From positions 70,916 to 134,915 of the forward strand of contig KV419421.1 in assembly GCA_001630475.1 (NCBI GenBank): a stretch of DNA of 64,000 nt, in the 5' to 3' direction. The position numbers were made by a program, and so were the translations under genes. The DNA comes from Sistotremastrum niveocremeum HHB9708. Lineage: Eukaryota; Basidiomycota; Agaricomycetes; Sistotremastrales; Sistotremastraceae. The notes under the pieces were generated by a model that saw only the letters and a list, made by a program, of their open reading frames with translations, was not told where the DNA came from and did not search any database. This document shows positions 2,941 to 60,502 of this stretch, in pieces. The stretch's first letter is position 1. The number at the start of each line of letters is the position of its first letter.

Positions 2941-3489
2941 CCCTCCGAGTCGTTCGACTGCATTTAGTTCTTCTTCCTACTCCGATTATCAGCACTTCTC
3001 CTTATTCAAGCATCCTGAAACTCTCGCCTTTGCCATCATTAGTGTAGTACTGTACCTCGCATTGTCCCATTCATGTATATCTCATCCGAATTGCCAATCA
3101 TCCATCTGTAATGCAGCCATGTACTCTACTCTAGCTAGTTCCTCGTGTGTTCGTCTTCTCTACTCGTATCTCGTGTTTGACTCACTGCTCGTCTCTACCT
3201 GCGTAGAATATCAACCATCAAACGAAGTTCACGTAAGACCGATGCATGAGACCTTGAACAAACGGAATCCATTACAAGCACGTACAATGTACGACTGGAA
3301 TACACAATCCGTAACATGACACAGCGAGACATTGAGACCATTACAATAAAGTGGCGTGCAACTGACGAGTACACAGGATATGACCAAAGAAAGAGTGAAA
3401 CACGGAGAAGCGACGACTGCAGAGAAAGGTCTTTGGTAAGCGGAAGAAAAATCAATTCGAGAGCTGAGAGCGATTGACTGGGTTTCGAA
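2941..3489. other. 3' intergenic region between convergent genes
   Basis: This 549-bp stretch separates the 3' ends of two convergent F-box-like genes. It is pyrimidine-rich on the plus strand. It shows no coding signal beyond short chance frames and probably holds both 3' UTRs. Confidence 0.5.
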
Positions 3490-4981
3490 CTAAGAGTTCA
3501 CAACTTGTACTTCACATTCTCGCGCGGCTTCGATAAGCGTGACGTTTTCCGCAAGCTGCTGCCTTTCCTCAATGGCCATGGGATCGCCGTATCCCCAGTC
3601 AGTCTTGATCTTGATGCGTGAGCAGATTGGTAGAAGATGTTGATCGACTCGAATGATTACCGTAGCTGGACCTACGCGACCAGAGAGGTCGAGGTTGACG
3701 ATATGATGGTACGTTTCGAAAAGTTCGCGAAAGAAGAGAGTTGGATCGATCGATGATAACGCGGTGTTTTGCCCGTGGCTTGGGTGAATGTTATAGCGAA
3801 TGACGAGATCTGTGGGTTGCACGCCGAGCGTGCTTAAGAGGCATGTACACATATCGATAAGGGTGGGAAGAACGCATTCGTTGTCCGGCGCTTCGAGCAG
3901 CTGGTCCATGCCAGTCCCTATCCAACTACTAGTATACGTGATCGAGGGCGTTCCATTTGTCTTGATGATGACACGACTCAGATAAACGGCAATGAACAAG
4001 GAAGTGGGAGGAATCCATGTTTCGGACGGGGCAGCGAGGGTACGTGGAATTGATGCTCGGACGATTTCGGTAGGTACTTCGGTGTGTAGGTTTCGGGTAT
4101 AGAGAGTTTCGTTGATTGTGAGTTTCTCGAGAATGGGAAGTCGGACGCTGTCGAGGATGTATTGGGCGGTCGACGCGGTCAACTGTTTGATCTCGAACCG
4201 ACGGCAAGAGGGGAGAACGATGGACCCGGGGATACTCGGGGGCGGGATGTCGACGTCGTCGCGCCTGTCCTGCCAGTTGGCGCCAGTTAGCGTGATGGCC
4301 TCCGCGTTGCGCATATATTGTAGTTGGAAGACGTTTTTTCGGAGATTTTCCTGGGAGATATGTAGAGTGAGGGTCGTGACGGACCGGAGTGGCTCGAGCT
4401 TCCATGGAAGACGAGAGAGAATTTTGGCGGTCTGCAAGCTGGGCGCTTGACCAGAAAAAAAAGTCATGCTCGAAGGGTATTCCTGCTGCACAAAGTTGAC
4501 GGCGAGGGAGCGAAGATTGGGGGCTGGTGTCTCGAACGCGCCGATGAGTTTTTTGAAGGCCACCGTGCTGCGGACACGCAGGTCGAAGTGCTCGACGGCG
4601 TTCATGTTGGAACGTATGAAAGCGATCCATTGCTCGGCCTCGGACGTTGAGGCAGCGTGGGGCTTCCTAGTGTCAAGATAGAGGCGGATTTTGTGCCCCT
4701 CAGCGCGTTGAAAGAAGAGGTTTGAGATGTCGGGGTGAAGGTGAAGGTGGATCGTACTCCAGAGAGCGGGACGATCAAGCATCAGGTTTCGAGTCCGGCG
4801 GTGACTAGCAGTCCAAGGTGATCAGCGAAAGCGATCCGAATGTGAGCTCGTCGTCGTCGACTCACATTTGAGTCATGCGTATGAGAGCTTCGGCCCTCTT
4901 TTTAGCACTTTCCCTACGCAGGATTCGAACGTATTCATTGATAATCTGGACCAACAATTCTGTTGGCAAGAGGTCGAGCAT
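3490..4981 (-). CDS. F-box-like protein, duplicate of the gene at 26222 (476 aa)
   Basis: Exons, transcribed right to left, are 4866-4981 and 3490-4804, with a GTGAGT...CTAG intron in phase 2. The protein starts MLDLLPTELLVQIINEYV and continues after the intron with NLMLDRPALWSTIHLHL, completing an F-box-like motif. The 116-nt first exon has exactly the same length and phase as in the gene at 26222. The two proteins stay collinear to near the end, for example RSTVAFKKLIGAFETPAPN in both. The C-terminal region is leucine-rich with no enzymatic motif. It shares a compact divergent promoter with the gene at 5518. Adaptor function in an SCF complex is inferred from family knowledge. Confidence 0.82.
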
Positions 4982-7780: not shown

Positions 7781-9734
7781 GAAAGAACCTCAAAAATTCA
7801 GATTAGCGGACGATGAGATGAATAGCAGATGGTACTCGCCGAAAGGATGATATCCATCGTCTGTTCCAAGTAAATGGAGAAGACGATGGCAAGCGGGACT
7901 CCCAAGATGATCATGAGACCATAATGCACCAACGGAAGCGAAACCGAGCACTCATGAATCTCTCCACAGCTGGACGTGCGCAAAAGGAAGCAAGCTTCAA
8001 TCGAGCACATTGAGGCCTGGTGATTAAACACCCAGGGGCCCCGCTGTGGATTTCGTGGAGAACGGCGAGACCTGCACTGCAAGCAGGCAGGTGAGTGCGG
8101 TGGGGGGAAGGAGGAGAGGATCCCAAGGTGGTCGCCACTGGTGACCCAGAGACAGCCACACCCAGCGTCTTGAAGCTTTGGCACTCGCCTGTGGTCGCAC
8201 TCGACGACGACAGGAGTCTTGAGAGATACAGCGGCAGCCAGTCCGAGCACTCATTGATCTCTCCCAGCTGGACGTGCGCGAAAGAAGCAAGCTTCAATCG
8301 AACACATAGCGTCTTGGTTACTAGGTACCCAAGGGCCCCGCTGGGATTTCGTCGAGACGACGGCGAGACCTGCTCTCAAGCTTGCCTGCAAGCAGGCATT
8401 GCAAGAGGGCAGGTGAGTGCGGAAGGAGGGATGGGGAGCGGAGACCAAAAAATGGCGAGATGATATGGAAAATTTGAGAGCTGAGTTTCAAGAAAGAGCA
8501 TGTGAATTGAAGTCCAAAGAATGGTCCAATTGAGGATATCTGAAGAGCAGGATGAATGGGCGTGAGCGCAGAGCAGAGCAGCAGTGTTGTAGTCGTCGTT
8601 GCCAGAGAGTGAGCGGCAACGGCGGGCGTCTAATAGAACATCGGCGTTGCTTTCGGAGCCGGTGCCGAAGTTCCCAGCTCGGAGCCGGTAGCNNNNNNNN
8701 NNNNNNNNNNNNNNNNNNNNNNNNNNNNNNNNNNNNNNNNNNNNNNNNNNNNNNNNNNNNNNNNNNNNNNNNNNNNNNNNNNNNNNNNNNNNNNNNNNNN
8801 NNNNNNNNNNNNNNNNNNNNNNNNNNNGCTACCGGCTCCGAGCTGGGAACTTCGGCACCGGCTCCGAAAGCAACGCCGATGTTCTATTAGACGCCCGCCG
8901 TTGCCGCTCACTCTCTGGCAACGACGACTACAACACTGCTGCTCTGCTCTGCGCTCACGCCCATTCATCCTGCTCTTCAGATATCCTCAATTGGACCATT
9001 CTTTGGACTTCAATTCACATGCTCTTTCTTGAAACTCAGCTCTCAAATTTTCCATATCATCTCGCCATTTTTTGGTCTCCGCTCCCCATCCCTCCTTCCG
9101 CACTCACCTGCCCTCTTGCAATGCCTGCTTGCAGGCAAGCTTGAGAGCAGGTCTCGCCGTCGTCTCGACGAAATCCCAGCGGGGCCCTTGGGTACCTAGT
9201 AACCAAGACGCTATGTGTTCGATTGAAGCTTGCTTCTTTCGCGCACGTCCAGCTGGGAGAGATCAATGAGTGCTCGGACTGGCTGCCGCTGTATCTCTCA
9301 AGACTCCTGTCGTCGTCGAGTGCGACCACAGGCGAGTGCCAAAGCTTCAAGACGCTGGGTGTGGCTGTCTCTGGGTCACCAGTGGCGACCACCTTGGGAT
9401 CCTCTCCTCCTTCCCCCCACCGCACTCACCTGCCTGCTTGCAGTGCAGGTCTCGCCGTTCTCCACGAAATCCACAGCGGGGCCCCTGGGTGTTTAATCAC
9501 CAGGCCTCAATGTGCTCGATTGAAGCTTGCTTCCTTTTGCGCACGTCCAGCTGTGGAGAGATTCATGAGTGCTCGGTTTCGCTTCCGTTGGTGCATTATG
9601 GTCTCATGATCATCTTGGGAGTCCCGCTTGCCATCGTCTTCTCCATTTACTTGGAACAGACGATGGAGATTATCCTTTCGGCAAGTACCACCTGCTATTT
9701 GACTTATCCATTTCTAACTTGCAATTTGAGGACC
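7781..9734. mobile_element. Foldback (long inverted-repeat) element, copy 1
   Basis: Two arms, about 7781-8692 and 8828-9734, are reverse complements and meet at a gap of Ns. They are essentially identical from the gap out to about 7855 and 9665; outside that they drift. The outer ends carry an imperfect terminal repeat with core GAACCTCAAAAATTCAGATT. Each arm contains two diverged copies of a ~190-bp unit (GAGCACTCATTGATCTCTCC up to GGCAGGTGAGTGCGG). A second element of the same build lies at 22277-24265 with different flanks, so this is a repeated element rather than a one-off artefact. No transposase is visible, so it is probably non-autonomous. The strand-symmetric open frames inside it are products of the palindrome. 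Confidence 0.7.
8693..8827. other. Assembly gap at palindrome apex (135 Ns)
   Basis: Run of Ns flanked by exactly complementary sequence (GAGCCGGTAGC on the left, GCTACCGGCTC on the right). The flank holds repeated CGGAGCCGGT motifs, which suggests a GC-rich minisatellite at the hairpin tip. The gap size may be arbitrary. Confidence 0.9.
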
Positions 9735-30182: not shown

Positions 30183-32469
30183 ATGGGCGACAACGAAAAC
30201 AACACATATCCCATCACGGGAATCCAGGAAGGACTGGGACCAGCTGCTGGCCAAGTCCCCCTTCGACAGGAGATCGATGCATGGTCTCAAAATCCCGCCA
30301 ACGCTACGCAGGTCAACTTGTTCATCCTCGCGATGGCTCGCTTCCAGAACCTGAAAGTGGAGGACAAGCTTTCCTTTTGGCAAGTCGCTGGTGAGTGTTC
30401 CCTATTTCCAAGCTATCTTGATCGAGCGAGCGCTGATCATTTGTAGGTATCCATGGTCAGCCTCTCGTACCGTGGGATGAAAATACCGAGTCTCAATCTC
30501 CGGGATCTGGTTACTGCACGCACGGGAGCATTCTGTTCCCGTTGTGGCATCGCCCGTACATCGTGCTATTCGAGGTAAGTCATCGACGACATGAATTTCG
30601 ATGATTAATCTAATTGAGTATCCAGCAACGCCTCTACGAGATCATGAGAGACGACATCATCCCCTCCTTCCCGCAAAACCAACAAGCGGACCTGCTGGCC
30701 GCCGCTCAGACCTGGCGATTCCCCTACTGGGATTGGGCCGCAAAGAAATCCAGGCCAGGATTCAAGGCTCCCAATTACGACGTACCCTTGCTCGTCAAGT
30801 CTGCGAATGTGGACGTGCTGAGCTCTACTGGCAAACAAACCATCGCAAACCCATTGTATAGCTTCAAGACCAAGACTCCCATGGGTAAACACGGCATATA
30901 TGGTTTACAGCCAATAGACAGTGCACCGGTACGTGATCAATATGATTCTAGAATCTCGCTCATTCTCTTCAAAGTATGATATCTGTGAGGCAACGAGCAA
31001 ATGCCCTCCCGCCCCTGGACCTAGAACTCAAGCACAATGGGTTGATGGAGTCCAAAATTATGATGAAGTTGTGTCGAGTCTTCGTGGTCACCAGTGGTAC
31101 GAAGGAGAACAATATACGGATACGCTTGGCGAAACCGTATATCGTCTTTTCTCGGAGGATTATTTCAGCAGCTATGATACCTTTTCGTCCACCGCTTATG
31201 TTGAGCAGGGCGGTTCCGCCGATTACTTGTCTTTAGAGGACATTCATAAGTAAGTCCTCGTCTCTTTAGGAAAGATTTCAAACCTGATTGTGTTTGACAG
31301 TAATATTCACAATTGGGTTGGCGGAGAAAATGGTGGACATATGGCAAATGTGCCAGTGGCCGCGTTTGATCCTATCTTCTGGTTCCATCACTGGTACGAT
31401 CTCTATTCGTTCGACGTGCGATTGACTTCTGATGCATGATTATAGCAATATCGACCGTCAATGCGCCATCTGGCAAGCCCTAAACCCAAATGCCTGGTTT
31501 GACGACCCAAGCCAACAGCTCGTCGACAACAGCGGCAATTGGTCAACTCCCCCCGGCACCACCGACACTCCCAACTCGGCTCTCGCCCCTTTCCACACTG
31601 ATACTCAAGGCACATACTGGATTGCAAATGACGTTCGCGATTGGACGAAGCTTGGATATTCTTACCCCGAACTTCAACCATGGCTTCCTCAATATAACCC
31701 TAATGGCCAATTCAGCCAGGACCTTTATTCGGCGGATATATCAAAGCAGGTTAATGCGCTGTATAGTAATGCTCGTACGCTGTTGTTGAAGCAGCCTGCT
31801 CCTGCTGCTTTCTCGGCTCGCGGGCCGACAGACGTCCATCATGGTGCGAAGATCGTTGAAGAGAATGACTATGTCGTCAACGTGCTTTACGAAAGGTGGG
31901 AAATTTTGACATTCCTTCCACCGGCGTGATTGACAACAAAGATATAGGTTTGAACTCGGCGGTCAACCATTTACGATCCACATCTTCATCGGCAAAGATA
32001 CTCGTGTCGGTAGCGTGTACAATTTCAGTACTCCAGCTGACACTACCGGTGGAACGGAAGGGTGCGACAACTGTCGTAGTCAAGAATCGAACAATAAGCG
32101 CTCAACTGGTCAAGTTCCCATCATCGGTGCTTTGATCAAGGATATCGCAGATGAGAGCAAACCTTTGAATTCTCTGGAGCATGTGCATGTGCAGGAATAT
32201 TTGAAGGAGACTCTTCATTGGAAAGTCACTAAGGTTCGTTGATTTCCTCGGAAGGCAACCATTTATTGACGACACTATGCCAATTCCAGGTTCACGGAGA
32301 AGAAGTCGAGCTCAACTCGCTCGTGGTGTCTTTGGCTGCCGGTACCGGACGTCATTACGGCGACCATGCGCGTCGATCGAAATATCATAACTATAAGATC
32401 CTGCACGTCCCCACCGAAGGCCGTCCCGGTGGATATAGCCGCCCGGGCCATGGTCATGGACATCACTAA
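30183..32469 (+). CDS. Tyrosinase (polyphenol oxidase) 1 (640 aa)
   Basis: Eight exons: 30183-30390, 30447-30574, 30626-30928, 30975-31249, 31301-31393, 31446-31895, 31948-32233, 32290-32469; the sum is 641 codons. The type-3 copper site is complete. CuA has His72 ([10 protein letters not shown]), His95 in YCTH with Cys93 placed for the thioether bond, and His104 (LWHRPY). CuB has His304 and His308 (DIHNNIHNWVGG) and the FWFHH pair at 334-335 before NIDR. A C-terminal domain follows, with GSVYNFSTP and a His-rich end (GHGHGHH). The enzyme oxidises monophenols and diphenols to quinones, leading to melanin. No signal peptide is seen, as usual for fungal tyrosinases. It is intact, unlike the copy at 52778. 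Confidence 0.93.
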
Positions 32470-50373: not shown

Positions 50374-52138
50374 ATGTCCTCGTCAAGCTCTCACGATTCC
50401 ATTGTATTCGGCTCTTCTTGTCCAGATGAGGTTCTCGCCCATATCTTCGAATACCACTGCGAGCAATCCTTTGTACCCAATACTAGTATGACCTCTAGCA
50501 ATCTCTTACATCGCCTACGCAAAGCTCTGACTCTTACACGAGTGTATGTTCAATGTGCATCAGAGCGTACTTGATGTCAAATACTGACTCGCTCTGGGCC
50601 TTCATAGATGTTCCAATTGGAGAACAGTCGCGATTGCCGATCCCTGGCTTTGGGGACACATCAATCTTTCATGGCATATTGATGCAATTGATGCTTGCTT
50701 TGAACGATCTCGATCTGTCGATTTGAACCTCTACCTCACAATAGACGCAAAGAACCGAAGCTATGTCGAGCCGAACTTAGAATACCTCCAGGGCCTCATC
50801 TCTGCCTACATGCCTTGCATCCGCGAATTGCATTTGTTTCTTCTCACTCAAGATCGACAAAATACGCCGGAGATCGGAGAGCTCGAAGAAGATGACGACG
50901 GGTGGGGTCCGCCCAGTACGATGATGTCGGATTTCTACTCCCCCTTTCTGACACTCGAAGCTCCCGCTCTCATGAAATTCTCTCTGTCGCTCTACAGTAG
51001 AGGAGATGACAACAATCACCCTCCCGTCGCAAACTTTCTCGGAGGACGTGCTCCAAACCTACGACATCTCGATCTTCGCGGGGTTGATATACCACTATCG
51101 GGATCCCCTTTTGACAAACTCGCCTTTCTCACGCTCGACACCATGGGAAAAAATGGAGCTTTTTACACCTTGAAAGAGATCGTCTCAACACTTTCTTCTT
51201 TTCCACGCTTAGAAACACTGCACCTGGAACATCGTCACGAGAAGTTCACTGAAGACGACGAAGATCATTTCAATGACTTCGACCCTCCTCGTGCACCCAT
51301 GGTCTTACCTTTCTGTAGGGATCTACTACTGCGTGGGTTACTGGGCCGACAGATCGTGTATTTCTTCACCCACGTCGAATGCCCTTCGATGCAAACTCTA
51401 CACATGCGCGCTAATTTGGCCGATTCGCCCTATCTTCCTGATGATGTTTTGCCTCCCAAATCCGCTTTGCCTTCTTGCCTGCATCCTATCTTCGAGGGTC
51501 TCCAAACCCTGGAAATTTCTTTCGACTATGGCAGCATAACGTTCGAGAGCGTCAGCGAGAATGTGCCATTCTCTTGGCAGCTTGTCTGTGACGGAATCGA
51601 TGTATCCGATGATCGCTACGACCGTCGTGGCATTGACATCCTTGATAGCTATTTTACGGGATGCTCCGGGGTTATCACCCTCCTCGACCCTGTAAAAATA
51701 TGTCTGCAATACGGCCAGGAGATAAATTATGCGGAACCTTCAAAGGGCGCCTGGATCGACTTCCTTTCACATGCGACTCGTGTAACGACGCTTTCGCTCA
51801 AGTGCACCCCGATCAACTCTCTGATTGAGTCACTGGGCGATCGACAAGACATCTGCCAATCTCTCGAAGAAATCGACATCAACCGAGCATTCTTTGCGGG
51901 AAAGGATCTGAAGCAGATGTTGCATTGTAGAAAACAAAAGGGGTATGGTGTCAAGAGATTGAAGTTGGACATGACGGTAGATAGGAACTATCCTACTCCG
52001 CGGAGACAGAGGATGTCCAGCTTTGACTTCGAGCGTCAATTAGATATCGCCGATCTTGTGGATACTTTCACAGGCTATGCTGAAGACCTCGAGTATAAGT
52101 GGCGCCCTTACGATGACTTCTCGTTCACGTCGACCTAG
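50374..52138 (+). CDS. F-box-like protein (566 aa), tandem with the gene at 47936
   Basis: Exons 50374-50543 and 50608-52138; intron GTATGT...CATAG, phase 2. The F-box-like region is SSCPDEVLAHIFEYHCE plus, after the intron, CSNWRTVAIADPWLWGHI. The body has acidic and leucine-rich parts, with FLTLEAPALMKFSLS matching FLHSEAPSLERFTLS of the upstream neighbour. A conserved FSWQ (VPFSWQLVCDGID / LFSWQIHH) appears in both. The start at 50374 (MSSSSSHDS) is chosen over 50260 because the added residues are not similar to the neighbour. Adaptor function is inferred. Confidence 0.8.
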
Positions 52139-52777: not shown

Positions 52778-55632
52778 CTATGCGAAAGCCGCTTCAGCAT
52801 GTGGCGGGGGCGGCGGCGGGTTGGGACGACGATAACCGCCGGGACGACCCTCGGTGCAGCCAGGCAAGACTCTATAGCTGTGATATTTAGACAACCGAGA
52901 ATGGTCCCCATAGTGGCATCCGGTCCCTACGGCTAGGGAAACTTCGAGGGAAGGAATACTAGAGACGGGAACATCCTCTCCGTAGGCCTATAGCAATGTT
53001 AGGACTGCGATGGTCATGAGCTCGCTCGATGTGTTGCGCACCTTGGTAATTTTCCAAGTGAGATTCTTCTTCAAGTAGGCTTCTACCTGTTCCGGTTCCA
53101 TAGAGCTCAAAGGTACTCCGTCATCAGCCACATATTTGAGCAAGGAGCTTGTGATCGGAACTTGTCCCGTGCAAAGCGCGTGTCCGGACTCTTGACGACG
53201 ACAGTTCTCGCACCCGTCATTGACGCCAGTCGTATGAGCGGGAGTACTGAAGTTGTACAGTGTTCCGACACAGGTGTTTTGCCCAATATAAATATGGATG
53301 GTGAATGACAATCCTGCCAGGGCGAATCTAGTGATTCTTGATGAGATCGATCCGCGTCAAGATGAATATGGACATACCTTTCGTATGCCACGTTGACGAC
53401 GTAGTCATGACCTTCCACAGAGCTGACGATATGACCAGCTGATCCACGAGAACTACGAGACGATTGTGGACCTCGAGTCAACAGAATTTGGCGAGTATCG
53501 CTATACAGCGCATTGACTTGTTTGGCAATATCGGCTTTGTAGAGTTCTTGATTGAATCTGCCACCTGTGCGGTACTTTGGAAGCCATTGCTGCAGCTCAG
53601 GATAGGAATAGCCGTATTTCAACCATTCACGCGCATCGTTCGAAGTCCAATACGTTCCCGCGGTGTCGGTATGGAACGGAGCAAGAGGTGTATTCTCAGG
53701 CGTAGGAATAGCTCCCGGAGGAGTAGACCAGTTGCCCTCGGGGTCTGCCAATTGTTCGCGAGGATCTTCAAACCAAGAATCGGAGTTCAACGCTTGCCAG
53801 ATAGCAAATTGGCGATCAACATTGCTAACGACGTTGATCAGTCGAATATAAGAACAACACGATGAGACGCTAACCAGTGATGGAACCAGAATATTGGATC
53901 GAAGGCTGCCACAGCGGGACTGCTCATGTGGCCACCATTTGGGCCTCCGACGCTGTTGTGAATGTTGCTGTGGATACAGATGAGGAGGTCAAACACGAAG
54001 TCAAAGCCACGACATACTTGTGAATTGATTCCAATGAGGAGAAATCGGTCGGAGTTTGACTTTGCCGATGGGCCGTCGAGGCAAAAGCACTAAAACTGCT
54101 GAAATATTTCTCAGAGAATAAACGGTAGACTGATTCGCCCAGAGTGTCTGTGAATCTGCCGCCTTGGGACAACTGGAGCCCACGGAGGTTGTTGGCGAGC
54201 TCCTGATTATTCTGCACTCCGTTGACCCATGCTTGGTATGCAAGAGCCTTACGGCTGAGATCTGGAGGAGGTGGACATTTGCTTGTCGCTTTGAATTCGT
54301 GGTACTGCGAGAAAGGATCAGACCTTGCGCTTTCCCCGAATGATTCAGAGTACATACTGGCGGATTCGATTGGAGCAGGCCGTTAGCACCAAGAGATGGG
54401 TCTCCCATTGCTATAGCGGTCTTGAAAGCATAGACAGGGTTCGAAATAGTTCGCAAGCCAGTTGGCGTCAAGACTTCGATGTTAGGGAGTGTCACGATGG
54501 TCGGCGCATCATAGACGGGGGTGTTGGATCCTGCTCTAGCCTTCTTTGCCGCCCAATCCCAGTAAGGGAATCGCCATTGGTTGGCTGCAGTCAACAAGGC
54601 TGCTTGCTGATTTTGAAGAAATTCAGGGATGACGTCATCCCGCATGATCTCGAACAAGCGTTGCTTTTGGCACCGTCAACTTCAGAGTCGTGTAGGGACA
54701 AGGTCGAACGTACCTCAAACAATAACATGTAGGAACGGTGCCAAAGTGGGAACAAGTTGCTGTTGTGAGTGCAGTATCCGAGCCCTCGTCCTGCAGTCTT
54801 GGACTGAGTCTTTTCCCCCACGGAACAAGGGGTTGGCCGTGGATACCTGTCGACGCATTAACATATGTACCGTGTAAGGAGCGCAACTACATACCGCAAA
54901 CTTGCCAGTATGAGAGCTTCGCGTCGGGCGGTAAAGACTGGAAGCGACTCATCGCAAGGAAGAAAAGATTGATTTGATCCTTGTTCGCCGGATTTCCGTA
55001 CCATTCGTCGACTTCGTATCGGAGAGGCACTTGCTCAGGAGCAGGTCCCCAGCCTTGGCGAATGCCGATGATAGCATAGGTCGAGTTCTTCGAGTCGGGA
55101 CCACCTTCTTCGTCATCCGGCTTGGGTTCCTGGACGCGACTGAGAACCCGAAAGATAATGACAGAATGAGCAATCCACATGCTGGGACTGGAATAGGTAT
55201 GGTAGGATATCCCTCGTCTTTCGTATCTTGTCCGGAGCCCGGATATCCATTGCCGGGGATTTCCTGATGCAGAAAAATAAACGATGGTGAGAATTGACTA
55301 CACAAAGCACCACTTTATATACGACTTACCGAGGGGAGACACCATGCTCCTTTTCCAGAGCTCCTTGCCACGCGTCTCTTTGTCGGGCCAGTGAGAACGA
55401 TCTTGTGTGTAAGCGTCACGACCAGTTTGTCGCAATCTAAGGTTGCTTCACAAGTGATGGGCTCTTCCGAGTGATCGAGGGTGACATTGACCGCAATGTC
55501 ATCTGGGGAGAGCCCATGGGGGATAGCTCCTTTGAAGTAGAATAGATCCGGGAAAATTTGTTCGGTCGGAGAGATGACCTGCACCTGCGTGCCGTCGATC
55601 TTGATGAGAGGATTTGACGATTTATCTGACAT
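52778..55632 (-). CDS. Tyrosinase 2 with an extra N-terminal domain; one base short in exon 4
   Basis: Ten exons, 5' to 3': 55330-55632, 55189-55263, 54895-55129, 54714-54846, 54358-54663, 54018-54304, 53875-53967, 53378-53824, 53042-53327, 52778-52987. Exons 3-10 parallel tyrosinase 1 in order and phase, with both copper sites present: [38 protein letters not shown]. Exon 1 (101 codons) is a domain shared with the gene at 57504. Exon 2 (25 codons) is Gly/Tyr/Pro-rich ([16 protein letters not shown]). The exons sum to 2375 nt, one short of a whole frame. The missing base is in a run of five Gs (54814-54820), where tyrosinase 1 suggests six. This could be a consensus error or a recent disabling change. 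The exon 2-3 donor (GTCCCA) is weak; the alternative start at 55180 would drop the extra domain. Phenol oxidation to quinones is the expected activity. Confidence 0.78.
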
Positions 55633-55634
55633 AA

Positions 55635-55686
55635 CTGGAAGGGGGTCACATATATCATCCTAACTTCAGTGGTATGGGTCACTCAC
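55635..55686 (-). other. 5'-UTR intron of tyrosinase 2
   Basis: On the minus strand GTGAGT follows 'cgatcatag', and the acceptor CTTCCAG lies two bases before the ATG at 55632. The gene at 57504 has an intron in the same relative place, which supports both. Confidence 0.55.
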
Positions 55687-55756: not shown

Positions 55757-55768
55757 TTTATATATAAG
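55757..55768 (-). promoter_or_regulatory. TATA box of tyrosinase 2
   Basis: CTTATATATAAA (minus strand) about 125-135 bp upstream of the ATG, just above the proposed 5'-UTR intron. Confidence 0.5.
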
Positions 55769-57503
55769 CCTGGATCGTCGAATCTACCTATTCAATGGTT
55801 TCAGGAAAAGAGATCGATATTCCCGACGACAAGACCTGAATCGCACCGGTGGAATTTTAACACCGGCTCACAAGGTACAGTACAGCCATTCGAAATGCAG
55901 GCTAGGACGTGAGCCATCTCAGAAGTCAGCTGAGGATGCCACTTTAGTTCCAATTTCCGCAGCTGCAGCACTCGGCTCGTTCTGAGAATTGTCACGAGAA
56001 TCATATCAAGATGCAGTTCTTTCACTATGGATACAAGACGAACCATGAATGCTGTCGGCGCATGTTGGCAAGACTGGATCCTCGAAGAAATCTCCGGAGC
56101 AATTGTGATAGAATCTCGCAGCCTGAGGGAGCATTAGATGCATCAACTTCACCAATATGGTCCTCGAGGTCAAGAGGAGGGGGATAATGAATCTATACAA
56201 GGAAAGTTGAACAACATCAAGAAAAAAGCTGAGCGGGAACCGAGTATCGAGGGGTGAGAATCGGGTTCTTGTTTGATACCCGATTGGCGGAGTCAAGTTC
56301 GGCAGTAATGCCGGCCGTCGGCATCGGCAGAGTCAGCCTCGGCGGATAGCGGTTTGAACTTTCTCCCATGCTGGCTGTTCGCTGCGTGTGGGCTCAGAAA
56401 CTTGCGAAAGTTATAGATCTATGCCACAAGATCCAAGAAATTCCTGGGTGTCAAATCTTTTGGAAATATGTTCTGGAAGGCTGCTGTCTCATCAAGCTCG
56501 TCTCATCAAGCTCTGGACCAAGTGCAAACTCTGAACGCTGATCTGAAACATTGTTTTCATGTCAATTGCATGCAATGAAGGCGATTGAAGGTCCACAGTG
56601 TTTGCGCTAAGCTCTCACTGCGGACTCATCCTTCCATCATTCCGAGTCATGTGTCCCAGTGAGAAATTTTTACCGCGGAATTCCTTGTGGTGCGATGCTA
56701 CGACTGTCAGGCAGACTCAGGCTGCAGCATATGCTCGATAACTCGCGAGTCGATATCGGATACGTGAAAGGTTCAAAGAAGCCTCAATTAGAAGATGACA
56801 TCAGATCTATTGTTTGCGATGCATTTCAGGGTCGAAGCTCAACGGTTTCTCCTCCCGTCGACGCATAAGGCCCCTTTTCTGCCTCCGAATCCTCGCTACT
56901 CTACGGTGATTGTATGTTCCGTGCCTCACCATCAAAGCTGGATTATGGATGCACTATGGTCAATACTTATCTCGGGTACTCCTCGTCATTGAGCGTGTGA
57001 GCTGCTACCTTGAAGACCATGCTAAACGGTTGACGCACTCCGGCATTTCTTGACGAAGCTTTAAACAACCAACTTCACCGGTGTTCAGGCGCAGTATTGT
57101 GATCCACAATGATATTCTTTGCGACCCTCCGTGATAGAGAATTCCTCTTTTTTGTGGGAACGCTTTGATCAGACTTGGGCCAACTTCAGTCATTGCTCCG
57201 GAAGAATCTCTGGTCCGCGCGCAGGACAAGGCGCAGTCGAATGTCTACGTAAGCTCGTGACCTTGTGTAGCGAACCTAATGACCTGAATTCTTCTCTTTA
57301 CGTCCGGTTTGTCGATTCACCGAGGCCATTCATCAATAGGGTGGCCTATATAGACTGCCCTCAGTCAGCTCTTCTTCATCCCCACTGGTAGTTCCTGAGC
57401 CCAAAGCATCGCTAGCTTAGAAAAACCCCACCCACAACACAGTAAGTTATCTATATCCCATCTTACCGATTTATTTTTCTGAAAATTGCATTTGCTTTTA
57501 GCC
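55769..57503. other. Divergent intergenic region with promoter of the gene at 57504
   Basis: About 1.7 kb between two divergent, related genes. No gene is supported. CCTATATAG at 57345-57353 is a likely TATA box for the plus-strand gene. A 5'-UTR intron is likely at 57442-57501 (GTAAGT...TTTTAG), ending two bases before the ATG. Confidence 0.45.
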
Positions 57504-58775
57504 ATGACAGGCCGCGTCGCTACACAACCTTCAACCTACGGACCACACGTCGAGATCAAAGGAAGAGACGTCGAAGTCGTCTTCCCAGCAGAGAAAATCT
57601 TCCCCAGTATCCTCTGCTACAACGGCGACATCGCTCAAGAGCTCTCCACAGACCACATATCAGCCGACGCTTCCATCTGCCAGTCAGATGAAAGCGTCAC
57701 TTGCGAAGCTTCTCTCGACTGCGATCAACTCGTGGTTATTCTCACTCATAAAATTGTCATCACTGCTTCGACTCAGCGGTGTGTGGTGAAGAGGACCGGA
57801 ACGGGAAAATGGGGGCCTCACCCGTTGGCGGTACGACACTTCTCAACCGTCCTCCACTTCTTGTACTGATTATGGTATTCAGACTGGCTATAAACGTGGA
57901 TATTCGACTTCTACTTCTACTCCGGGTGTTCCGAATCTTGCATACCCAGTTACGCCAGATCAGGTACGTCTAGCTGGGGCAGCTCCCGACCAATAATTCG
58001 TCTTGACCACGGATGATACAGAACGGAGATAAAAATGGCTATGAACAAGATGACTCCAGTTCTTACACAGGCACGGGCGGAACGACATATCCAACCACCC
58101 CCAGCAGTGGAACAAGAGTGCGTCACATCCCCGAGCACGATTTCAAGGCATTGATAGCTGAGCATCAATCCTGCAGGGCCCTCTAGGAAGTGAACATGGC
58201 ACCGATTATTCTGGCACTACCGAGACTGGCACGACCACTTATCCCAACACGCCTTCCGTTGTAAGCTCCCTTTTCCGGTTTATTCTCTTTACAGGGTCTG
58301 ATTTTCAAAAAGAACCCGTCTGCTGCCGGCTACGAGACCAGTTATTCAGGTTCTGAAACTCAGGCTGGATATACGACATCGGTCACATCGGTGAGCTGGC
58401 TTATACGACCAATTCTGGTTCATTGTCATCAAACAATGTTTATAGGGAGGAGCGAAGAGTGGTGATACCGGTACAGGTGCAACATATACTATCACGGAAA
58501 CCCAAAGAAAAACCACGTACTCGAGCTCTTCCACGACGGTAAGGCACCATAGAAACTCAAGTCATAGTAGCCCTGTTGATTCCGATTCTCTATCTAGGAT
58601 ACGCCAAAGACTGAGCCCGGAGCAGGGTATTCTGTTGCCGGGACCGGCACACCGAGTGTTAGCTATCCCAAGCCCAATACTGTGAGCTAACTAGTCATTG
58701 CTCGCTCCTTCGATCGTGTCCTGAGCATTAATTCGACAGAAACAACCCAAGACAAGCACCCCTAAAGGATATTGA
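57504..58775 (+). CDS. Protein with tyrosinase-2-type N-terminal domain and Gly/Tyr-rich exon repeats (292 aa)
   Basis: Eight exons, every junction in phase 0: 57504-57830, 57883-57963, 58022-58117, 58177-58260, 58313-58390, 58446-58538, 58598-58681, 58740-58775. Exon 1 (109 codons) matches exon 1 of tyrosinase 2. Shared points are an IFP box, a CEASLDCDQLVVILTHKIV block against [19 protein letters not shown], and a closing basic G-x-G-x-W. Exons 2-7 (26-32 codons each) are similar low-complexity modules: a GY, then a Ser/Thr/Gly run, then often a Y-P-x-TP or TYP end (TTYPTTPSSG, TTYPNTPSV). The last exon ends TPKGY. There is no signal peptide, cysteine framework or catalytic motif. Such Tyr-rich repeats could be tyrosinase substrates or a cross-linked scaffold; that is speculation. 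I do not recognise the family. Confidence 0.75.
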
Positions 58776-59691
58776 TAGTCGGATGAGCATATCGAGACAT
58801 TCGAGAGAGCCATAAGGCAGCAAAGGGAGTTTCATACGACTTTGGTGTAGTGGTCGTACTATTATATCAAACTCAAGTCATGTAATTTACCCTCGCTTTC
58901 GTCAATCATTTGTGCTAAACTTTTCGGATGGTGATGAGAGGGGTGCTTTCATAGCACCGATGAAATCTTGAATTAATTAGATGGAAGGAAGAGTGTTCGC
59001 ATACTTTTATGCTTTGTTGACAAGAGGTTTGGAGGGTTTGGAGGTGAGTCAAATGGCGGAAGAAATATTACGTAATGTGGTCATTCAGCGCTCTCTCCTC
59101 CTTCGCCGCCTCTGCTGTTGCAACGCGCTTCTTGTCAGCCTCTACTAGGACCAATTCACGTCAACAAAATGCATAACAGATCATGTCTAGCATTCTCTCA
59201 AGGGGCAATGCTCCAGTAGCCTCGCATCGATCGCGTCTCGGGCCCTGTTCGACTATGCCAAAGCCCCTCTCAGGCTCTCACGACAAGGACATTCCCTCTA
59301 AAACAATAAATGGAATTCTGCCGCTTTACGATCATAGCAGATATCACGAGTGCAAGGACTAGGACTGTACCCACGGGGCCGCTTGGATCCTGATCCACAT
59401 GTCTTCCGTCTTTGCGCCATTGCAACGTGTACGACTGAATCCATGGCCATGCTTTGATGCGGAGGTAGCGCGAGTCAGGTACCATGAGCCTGAGGATGCC
59501 CTGGACTGTGGGAGCCATGTATTGAGTTCGGCCCATGCACTAGTACTGATGGAAGGTCCAGGTCAGATGGTGACATCTTCACTCCGATGTGCCTTACTCA
59601 CTCTTTCTCAGATATAAAGCCGGAGAAGACATGGACCTGTCCCTCCCTGAGCTTGACACACTCTATTCCCTAGTCGACAATCGCTGAGAAG
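58776..59691. other. Intergenic region and promoter of the secreted protein gene
   Basis: No gene supported; a minus-strand frame at 59270-59536 shows no clear features. GATATAAAG at 59611-59619 is a likely TATA box, about 75 bp before the ATG at 59692. Confidence 0.45.
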
Positions 59692-60502
59692 ATGCACGCT
59701 CTTCTTGTTGCTTTATTGGCGGTTTTTGCGTTTTCAGTTGCAGGAGCGACTCCTACGCCCGCCATAAAGCCTCCCGCGCTCGTCAAGCTCCGGATTGAAG
59801 GCGACGTCGACACTTTATTCGAGGCTTTCGTGAGTTCGCAGGATTCCCTCTATAATCAATCTCACCCTTCTTGTATTATAGGTCCTTACGGAAGGCCACG
59901 ACGTCACTACTGCTACAGGTGGCACTCATCATTGCGACGGAACGAATCTCGACGCAAATCCCACGCCTGGACCGACATGTACGAGCGCGCTTGACACCGG
60001 AAGTCTTCATCAACATCGATTCGTATGGGATGGGTACGCGTATTTAAACTTCATCATCTACAGAGACTAATCGACCCAATAATCCTCGCTCAGATCATTC
60101 GACACCGAATTCGACGATTTCTTCATCACGACCATTGCTGGTGTTGCCGAAACAGCCACCCAATTCTGGGGCATCCTCCTCGATTTCCAATTCACACCTG
60201 TCGGAGGGTGTCAACAGGAAGTCACGAGCGGACAAGAAGTCCTCTTTGCATTCGATGCATTCAACAAGAGTTTCTTCTTGAAAGCCTCCGGTCCGCCGGT
60301 GGCGAAATTAGGAAAGGCGGTGGTGGTGACTGTTATTGATGGGATGAGTGGGGTGCCGATCCAGGGAGCCAGCATTGGCGGAGTGCTGACGGATGTGAAT
60401 GGTCATGCCAGTATCACCTTTGCAACTGTCGGGTTGAAGAAATTGAAGGCGACGAGGAGTGATTCAATTAGGTCAAATGCCGTGGAGATACTTGTTGTTT
60501 AG
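59692..60502 (+). CDS. Small secreted protein, DUF4430-like plus Ig-like fold (232 aa)
   Basis: Exons 59692-59829, 59882-60033 and 60094-60502; GT-AG introns, 233 codons. A signal peptide MHALLVALLAVFAFSVAGA is followed by VKLRIEGDVDTLFEAF. Next come HHCDGTN, CTSALD and FFITTIAGV, then WGILLDFQFTPVGGCQ. This pattern recalls the transcobalamin-C-like DUF4430 fold found in fungal secreted proteins. Three cysteines (CDGTN, TCTSA, GGCQ) may stabilise it. The C-terminal part (VVVTVIDGMSGVPIQGA, LTDVNGHASITFATVG) resembles a carboxypeptidase-regulatory or Ig-like beta domain. No catalytic residues are evident. The ligand and role outside the cell are unknown. Confidence 0.7.

Follow-up and report, generated by a model that had tools for sequence, protein, structure and literature searches.

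Layout of the tyrosinase 2 locus

The window analyzed here is a 64-kb stretch of a genome of 34.7 Mb in 111 contigs, which we take to be that of a basidiomycete from the shortness of its introns and its gene content. It contains two related genes, which we call tyrosinase 1 and tyrosinase 2. The features of tyrosinase 2, and the position of tyrosinase 1, are as follows.

52778-55632, minus strand: tyrosinase 2 gene (open reading frame list and spliced alignment against tyrosinase 1)
55757-55766, minus strand: TATA box TATATATAAA upstream of exon 1 (motif scan)
55635-55686, minus strand: putative 5'UTR intron of 52 nt, GTGAGT...TTCCAG, ending 2 nt before the ATG (splice motif)
55330-55632, minus strand: exon 1, N-terminal domain, 101 codons (matches exon 1 of the neighbor gene and a copy on contig C10)
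55264-55329, minus strand: intron 1, phase 0, 66 nt, holding TATATAAA at 55314-55321 (splice scores)
55189-55263, minus strand: exon 2, Gly-Tyr-Pro module, 25 codons, phase-0 start (module likeness and codon score)
55130-55188, minus strand: intron 2, 59 nt (53 nt with a GC donor), weak donor, holding the in-frame ATG 55180
54895-55129, minus strand: exon 3, first tyrosinase exon (spliced alignment; start from splice and codon scores)
54714-54846, minus strand: exon 4, CuA site (GIHG, CTH, LWH), with a frame break at 54815-54819 (spliced alignment)
54358-54663, minus strand: exon 5 (spliced alignment)
54018-54304, minus strand: exon 6 (spliced alignment)
53875-53967, minus strand: exon 7, CuB site (spliced alignment and motif)
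53378-53824, minus strand: exon 8 (spliced alignment)
53042-53327, minus strand: exon 9, most of the Tyrosinase_C domain, PF18132 (spliced alignment and Pfam)
52778-52987, minus strand: exon 10, with the stop at 52778 (open reading frame list and spliced alignment)
30183-32469, plus strand: tyrosinase 1, the closest paralogue, without the extension (spliced alignment and tree)

The sequence-only reading had placed a 101-codon exon and a 25-codon exon ahead of a complete set of tyrosinase exons, with phase-0 ends. Both exons are present at 55330-55632 and 55189-55263 on the minus strand; the end of exon 1 and the start of exon 2 are both in phase 0, and tyrosinase 1 (30183-32469, plus strand) has no such N-terminal extension, as that reading also held. 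The set of tyrosinase exons is complete in that all eight and the stop at 52778 can be placed, but the frame of exon 4 is broken. Neither this break nor the weak donor of intron 2 nor the TATA-like site within intron 1 figures in the sequence-only reading. Splice sites were scored with models built from 101 introns of the same genome, in which the 5% quantile for donors is 2.3 bits. The intron 1 donor, GTAAGT, is strong at 8.9 bits, and its acceptor scores 6.1 bits.

The catalytic part is that of a long fungal tyrosinase

The eight tyrosinase exons (about 55129 to 52778, minus strand) are separated by the same seven introns as in tyrosinase 1, in the same places and phases by spliced alignment. 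Across 628 columns the two proteins share 60.7% identity, the dS of the pair is saturated, and in a tree of 13 tyrosinases from this genome, one of which (L015) is partial, they are sisters with support of 99/95. The branch to tyrosinase 2 is twice as long as that to tyrosinase 1 (0.53 vs 0.25), which fits relaxed constraint as well as a new function. PF00264 matches residues 58-349 of tyrosinase 2 at 1.2e-43, with an X at the frame break, and PF18132, the Tyrosinase_C lid domain, matches at 1.2e-28. All six copper-binding histidines are present by motif, their roles being those usual in the family, and the Cys two residues before the second CuA His, the thioether partner, is also in place (GYCTHNS).

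The N-terminal domain belongs to a small family

A search of the 34.7-Mb genome with exon 1 reveals two further copies of its domain. One is exon 1 of a divergent neighbor gene (57504, plus strand), with 46% identity and an E-value of 3.8e-23, and the other lies on contig C10 (L012, about 3270-4060, minus strand), with 36% identity and an E-value of 4.4e-12. No other copy at E ≤ 10 was found among the matches listed, in a search that scores the best candidates only, and none of the matches listed lies at any of 11 other tyrosinases. For the pair of exons in tyrosinase 2 and the neighbor, dN is 0.41 and dS is 2.4, which is near saturation, giving a dN/dS of about 0.17; the gap between dN and dS indicates that selection has maintained the domain. 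The codon score of exon 1 is modest: its 0.18 bits per codon correspond to the lower quartile of CDS windows 16 codons long.

The likeness between the three genes extends upstream of the coding sequence. Each of them has a TATA-like site and, assigned by splice motif, a putative intron in the 5'UTR that stops 2 nt short of the ATG; the introns are 52, 60, and 55 nt long, and the placement in the C10 gene is the same as in the other two. This shared 5' anatomy argues that the whole front end, including the promoter, is homologous. In tyrosinase 2 and the neighbor the domain exon ends in phase 0 and is followed by a tail exon, and by eye this may also hold for the C10 gene, whose tail appears charged, with Ser, Glu, and Lys and without richness in Tyr.

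The domain had been called unknown in the sequence-only reading. With at least three members in the genome it does not stand alone. Sequence searches gave no relative in Pfam (no match up to E 10) or in the PDB (best chance match E 0.34 with the single sequence, none with a three-row profile). Searches of IMG/VR contigs and of 84,980 prokaryote genomes, both poor sets for a fungal domain, gave 8 and 23 pattern matches, respectively, and confirmed none of them. AlphaFold models of the domain from two-row alignments are poor (mean pLDDT 47.1 and 36.7), and the strands that they contain are at most a hint that the domain may be all-beta.

A divergent neighbor encodes a row of Tyr-bearing modules

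The neighbor lies head to head with tyrosinase 2 at a distance of 1.9 kb. Its features, most of them from hand-read splice sites, are listed below.

57347-57353, plus strand: TATA-like site TATATAG (motif)
57442-57501, plus strand: putative 5'UTR intron, ending 2 nt before the ATG (splice motif)
57504-57830, plus strand: exon 1, common domain, 109 codons, phase-0 end (genome search and hand-read model)
57883-58775, plus strand: exons 2-8 overall (hand-read splice sites)
57883-57963, 58022-58117, 58177-58260, 58313-58390, 58446-58538, and 58598-58681, plus strand: modules (hand-read)
58740-58775, plus strand: last short exon (hand-read)

In this hand-read model eight coding exons are separated by seven introns of 52-59 nt, all in phase 0; the acceptor before 58313, AAAAAG, is unusual. 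The predicted protein of 292 residues consists of the domain, six modules of 26-32 codons with two to three Tyr each, and the short last exon. Its 183-residue tail contains 42 Thr, 27 Gly, 26 Ser, 17 Pro, and 16 Tyr. Among the genome-search matches listed, the neighbor itself is the only copy of the module row. No signal peptide was seen by eye on tyrosinase 2 or on the neighbor protein, so both should be cytosolic. The earlier suggestion that the short exon of tyrosinase 2 relates to a Tyr-rich partner gains support from this gene, which combines the same domain with a row of Tyr-bearing modules.

Elsewhere in the window, a small protein encoded at 59690-60500 on the plus strand has what looks by eye like a signal sequence at its start and matches DUF4430 weakly (21.0 bits, cut-off 23.8), and at 50588-52138 on the plus strand a 516-residue open reading frame has a weak leucine-rich-repeat match (24.9 bits, cut-off 27).

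Exon 2 resembles a module of the neighbor

Exon 2 aligns without gaps to module 7 of the neighbor over PGxGYxxxGxxTxxxxYP. Compared with shuffles of itself, it is similar to the six modules at P 0.0018 for the summed score and P 0.0076 for the best module, and none of 1310 25-mers from tyrosinases reaches its summed module score. Its size and phase are also consistent with the neighbor modules. The module family is loose: module 7, the likest to exon 2, is only marginally similar to the other modules (P 0.065), and module 6 has no likeness to them (P 0.47). A DNA repeat, D3, shared by exon 2 and module 7 was rejected as a sign of kinship, because both copies lie on the plus strand while the two genes run in opposite directions.

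The join between exon 2 and exon 3

A phase-0 join into the tyrosinase part, as claimed in the sequence-only reading, does exist, with an acceptor ending at 55130, but it is not distinctive. The possible donors of intron 2, GTCCCA (−0.1 bits) and the GC-type GCATGT (1.7 bits), both score below the 5% quantile. In a simulation on 3000 random segments of the window an in-frame join was possible in 93%, and 40% equaled the best one here; the splice between exons 2 and 3 was therefore rejected as proof of a fusion. Given weak donors and the joinability of random DNA, the case for the join rests on coding composition. Among CDS windows, exon 2 read in the Gly-Tyr-Pro frame ranks at the 96th centile and the beginning of exon 3 at the 95th. 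The DNA between ATG 55180 and exon 3 falls at the 1.25th centile of these windows but sits mid-range, at the 49th centile, among 89 open intron readings, and a reading from ATG 55250 reaches the 6.5th centile of coding windows. High scores in both exons and low ones between them favor an exon-intron-exon arrangement.

The 5' ends of the other tyrosinases also bear on this question. In each of the 11 whose 5' end can be read, an in-frame ATG precedes the conserved TYxITGI by 2-32 codons, in nine by no more than 8 codons and in the other two by 15 and 32 codons (the latter in L020); the twelfth, L015, was left out of the count as its 5' part reads N. The sole unspliced in-frame ATG of tyrosinase 2, at 55180, is 33 codons before this motif. 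In the 64-kb window TATATAAA occurs twice on the minus strand, at 55764 and 55321, and nowhere on the plus strand. Its presence within intron 1 as well as before exon 1 makes an internal tyrosinase start possible. In our judgement, a fusion transcript running from exon 1 through exon 2 to exon 3 is probable.

A frame break in exon 4

Exon 4 (54714-54846) contains a one-base frame change at a run of five Gs, 54815-54819, between VPW and GYCTH. In all 11 other tyrosinases that have exon 4 it reads through in one frame; the aligned part of L015 begins downstream of it and is outside the count. The aligner reported no frame breaks anywhere in the 12 other tyrosinases, but the 8-11 introns that it gave to four of these (L013, L014, L018, and L019), against the usual seven, could hide frame breaks elsewhere in those genes. 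With four genes over-introned and L015 partial, the statement that none of the 12 has a frame break was narrowed to exon 4.

At 110 sites that are invariant in the 11 others, tyrosinase 2 has four changes and the break. The same test on the full-length paralogues (L015 dropped) gives 0-7 changes at 105-112 sites. So few changes imply that tyrosinase 2 was under ordinary constraint until lately, which in turn makes the frame break either a recent loss or a homopolymer error. The assembly is gapped, with runs of N in the window at 8693, 23169, and 41439. The copy in the sequenced strain thus appears to be either freshly inactivated or mis-sequenced in the homopolymer.

A tyrosinase with a probable new front end

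As far as its sequence tells, tyrosinase 2 combines an ordinary long tyrosinase and a new front end, the source of which is in sight. Homology of the domain, the common 5' anatomy, the likeness of exon 2 to a module, and the intact catalytic motifs can all be read at the locus. The exon shuffling put forward in the sequence-only reading is upheld as a joining of exons or genes, and becomes specific, with a member of the apparent source family 1.9 kb away and head to head. We propose, at about an even chance, that this is a fusion gene in which a tyrosinase was joined to the duplicated front half of a neighbor-type gene, and in which the common domain links the enzyme with a Tyr-rich substrate. 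The promoter, the 5'UTR intron, the domain, and one Gly-Tyr-Pro module would derive from the duplicated front half of a member of the small gene family, and the catalytic part is a long fungal tyrosinase of the standard kind whose sister is tyrosinase 1.

Tyrosinases oxidize phenols to DOPA and then to quinones, which go on to cross-link. By self-association or through a common anchor, the shared domain would bring the enzyme and the Tyr-rich protein together; the common domain, the head-to-head genes, the module within the enzyme, and the lack of a visible signal peptide all point to such a meeting. The enzyme would then oxidize the module tyrosines to DOPA or quinone, and the oxidized modules would be cross-linked or the modular protein pigmented. 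We infer the joined transcript, the co-assembly, the identity of the substrate, and the cross-linking. More tentatively still, and with a chance well below even, the two genes might encode a matched enzyme-substrate pair, in which a divergent Tyr-rich modular intracellular protein recruits its own curing enzyme through the common domain, the tyrosinase carrying that assembly domain together with a single copy of a module from its substrate.

Other readings of the locus start from the same features. The domain and the Gly-Tyr-Pro exon could be a truncated copy of the neighbor and the tyrosinase a second transcription unit, driven by a promoter in intron 1 with its TATA at 55321 and starting from ATG 55180 or, if a short intron is spliced out, from ATG 55250. 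The confinement of TATATAAA to 55764 and 55321 on the minus strand, the weak intron 2 donor, and the start of L020, also 32 codons ahead of TYxITGI, are in keeping with this, as are distances: the nearest TATAWA-to-ATG spacing is 58-101 bp in eight of the 11 paralogues, namely those with a TATAWA within 450 bp, and from 55321 it is 71 bp to ATG 55250 and 141 bp to ATG 55180. However, the readings from both ATGs score as poorly coding (1.25th and 6.5th centiles), while the Gly-Tyr-Pro frame stands at the 96th. Should exon 2 be a module, the site at 55321 would fall within domain-gene territory and not represent an inherited tyrosinase promoter, and the 8 bp between the end of exon 2 and ATG 55180 leave no room for a terminator. 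We consider two units unlikely. That exons 1 and 2 are chance open frames is far less credible: the missing Pfam match, a PDB search no better than E 0.34, and the modest codon score of exon 1 would allow it, but conservation at two other loci (E 3.8e-23 and 4.4e-12) and a dN/dS of about 0.17 at near-saturated dS make it very hard to believe, and for exon 1 it is refuted by the genome copies together with the common 5' anatomy.

A fusion, whether real or partial, could also sit in a dead locus, the exon 4 break being true in the organism and the enzyme not made. The break, set against 11/11 other genes that read through, the long branch of tyrosinase 2, and the weak intron 2 donor all speak for a pseudogene. 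Yet a single frame break is all that has to be assumed over the roughly 640 residues, which are 60.7% identical to those of tyrosinase 1, the catalytic motifs are intact, and the break falls in a homopolymer of a gapped assembly, the usual place for base-calling errors. With one break and intact motifs any inactivation must be recent, and we see loss of the gene as a serious but minority possibility. Finally, the domain and module may be a localization tag, such as a condensate "sticker" or an anchor, with the Tyr-rich neighbor not being a substrate. The charged tail of the C10 member indicates that the domain can occur without a Tyr-rich tail; the member beside tyrosinase 2, however, does have such a tail, and the module fused to the enzyme resembles those in it, so that a tag of this kind appears doubtful to us. 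The fusion with a neighbor-type gene remains our preferred reading.

Relation to known systems

In a PDB search with tyrosinase 1, the best single-enzyme structures are 3W6Q/6JU4, which we take to be A. oryzae MelB, and 4OUA/5M6B and 2Y9W, presumably Agaricus bisporus PPO4 and PPO3, respectively; multi-unit hemocyanins rank higher by summed score. Tyrosinase 2 resembles the long fungal tyrosinases in its PF00264 domain, Tyrosinase_C lid, six copper-ligand His, and Cys near the second CuA His, and differs from them in the extra domain and Tyr-Pro module ahead of the catalytic part.

Mussel foot proteins and trematode eggshell proteins are Tyr-rich structural proteins cured by tyrosinases. Like the pair described here, these systems combine a repetitive Tyr-rich protein with a tyrosinase as enzyme and substrate, a relation that is presumptive in our case. 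They differ in that tyrosinase 2 and the neighbor have no secretion signal by eye, and we know of no domain common to enzyme and substrate in them. For most fungal tyrosinases, to our knowledge, the natural substrate has yet to be settled; a tyrosinase that carries its neighbor's domain and one of its modules points to a candidate and makes a direct test possible. The locus also offers a readable case of phase-0 exon joining, with a member of the source family 1.9 kb away.

According to the available text of a review on polyphenol oxidases (PPOs), the elements of a PPO are a signal peptide, a central domain, and a C-terminal domain, and insect enzymes and PaPvdP have an N-terminal domain (PMC11608171). 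No fungal tyrosinase with an N-terminal extension of the present kind appears among the literature matches listed, as far as their titles and abstract openings go. The Streptomyces MelC1/MelC2 system, as presented in the same available text, is comparable in that a partner encoded next to the tyrosinase has a tyrosine reaching into the enzyme, whereas the MelC1 caddie, unlike anything proposed here, delivers copper and shields the site (PMC11608171). In tyrosinase 2, by the proposed fusion, the common domain is part of the enzyme itself, which already possesses a lid domain.

The genome contains at least 13 tyrosinase genes, derived from 24 matches, with seven on contig C38 and three on contig C28. 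Two of the genes have peculiarities of their own. In L021 (679-3036, minus strand) the linker between the catalytic and C-terminal domains is about 35 residues longer than that of tyrosinase 1 and is rich in Pro and Ile, and L017 (1320-3514, plus strand) carries LYMHH instead of FW[FL]HH at its CuB site and SIHG instead of GIHG at its CuA site.
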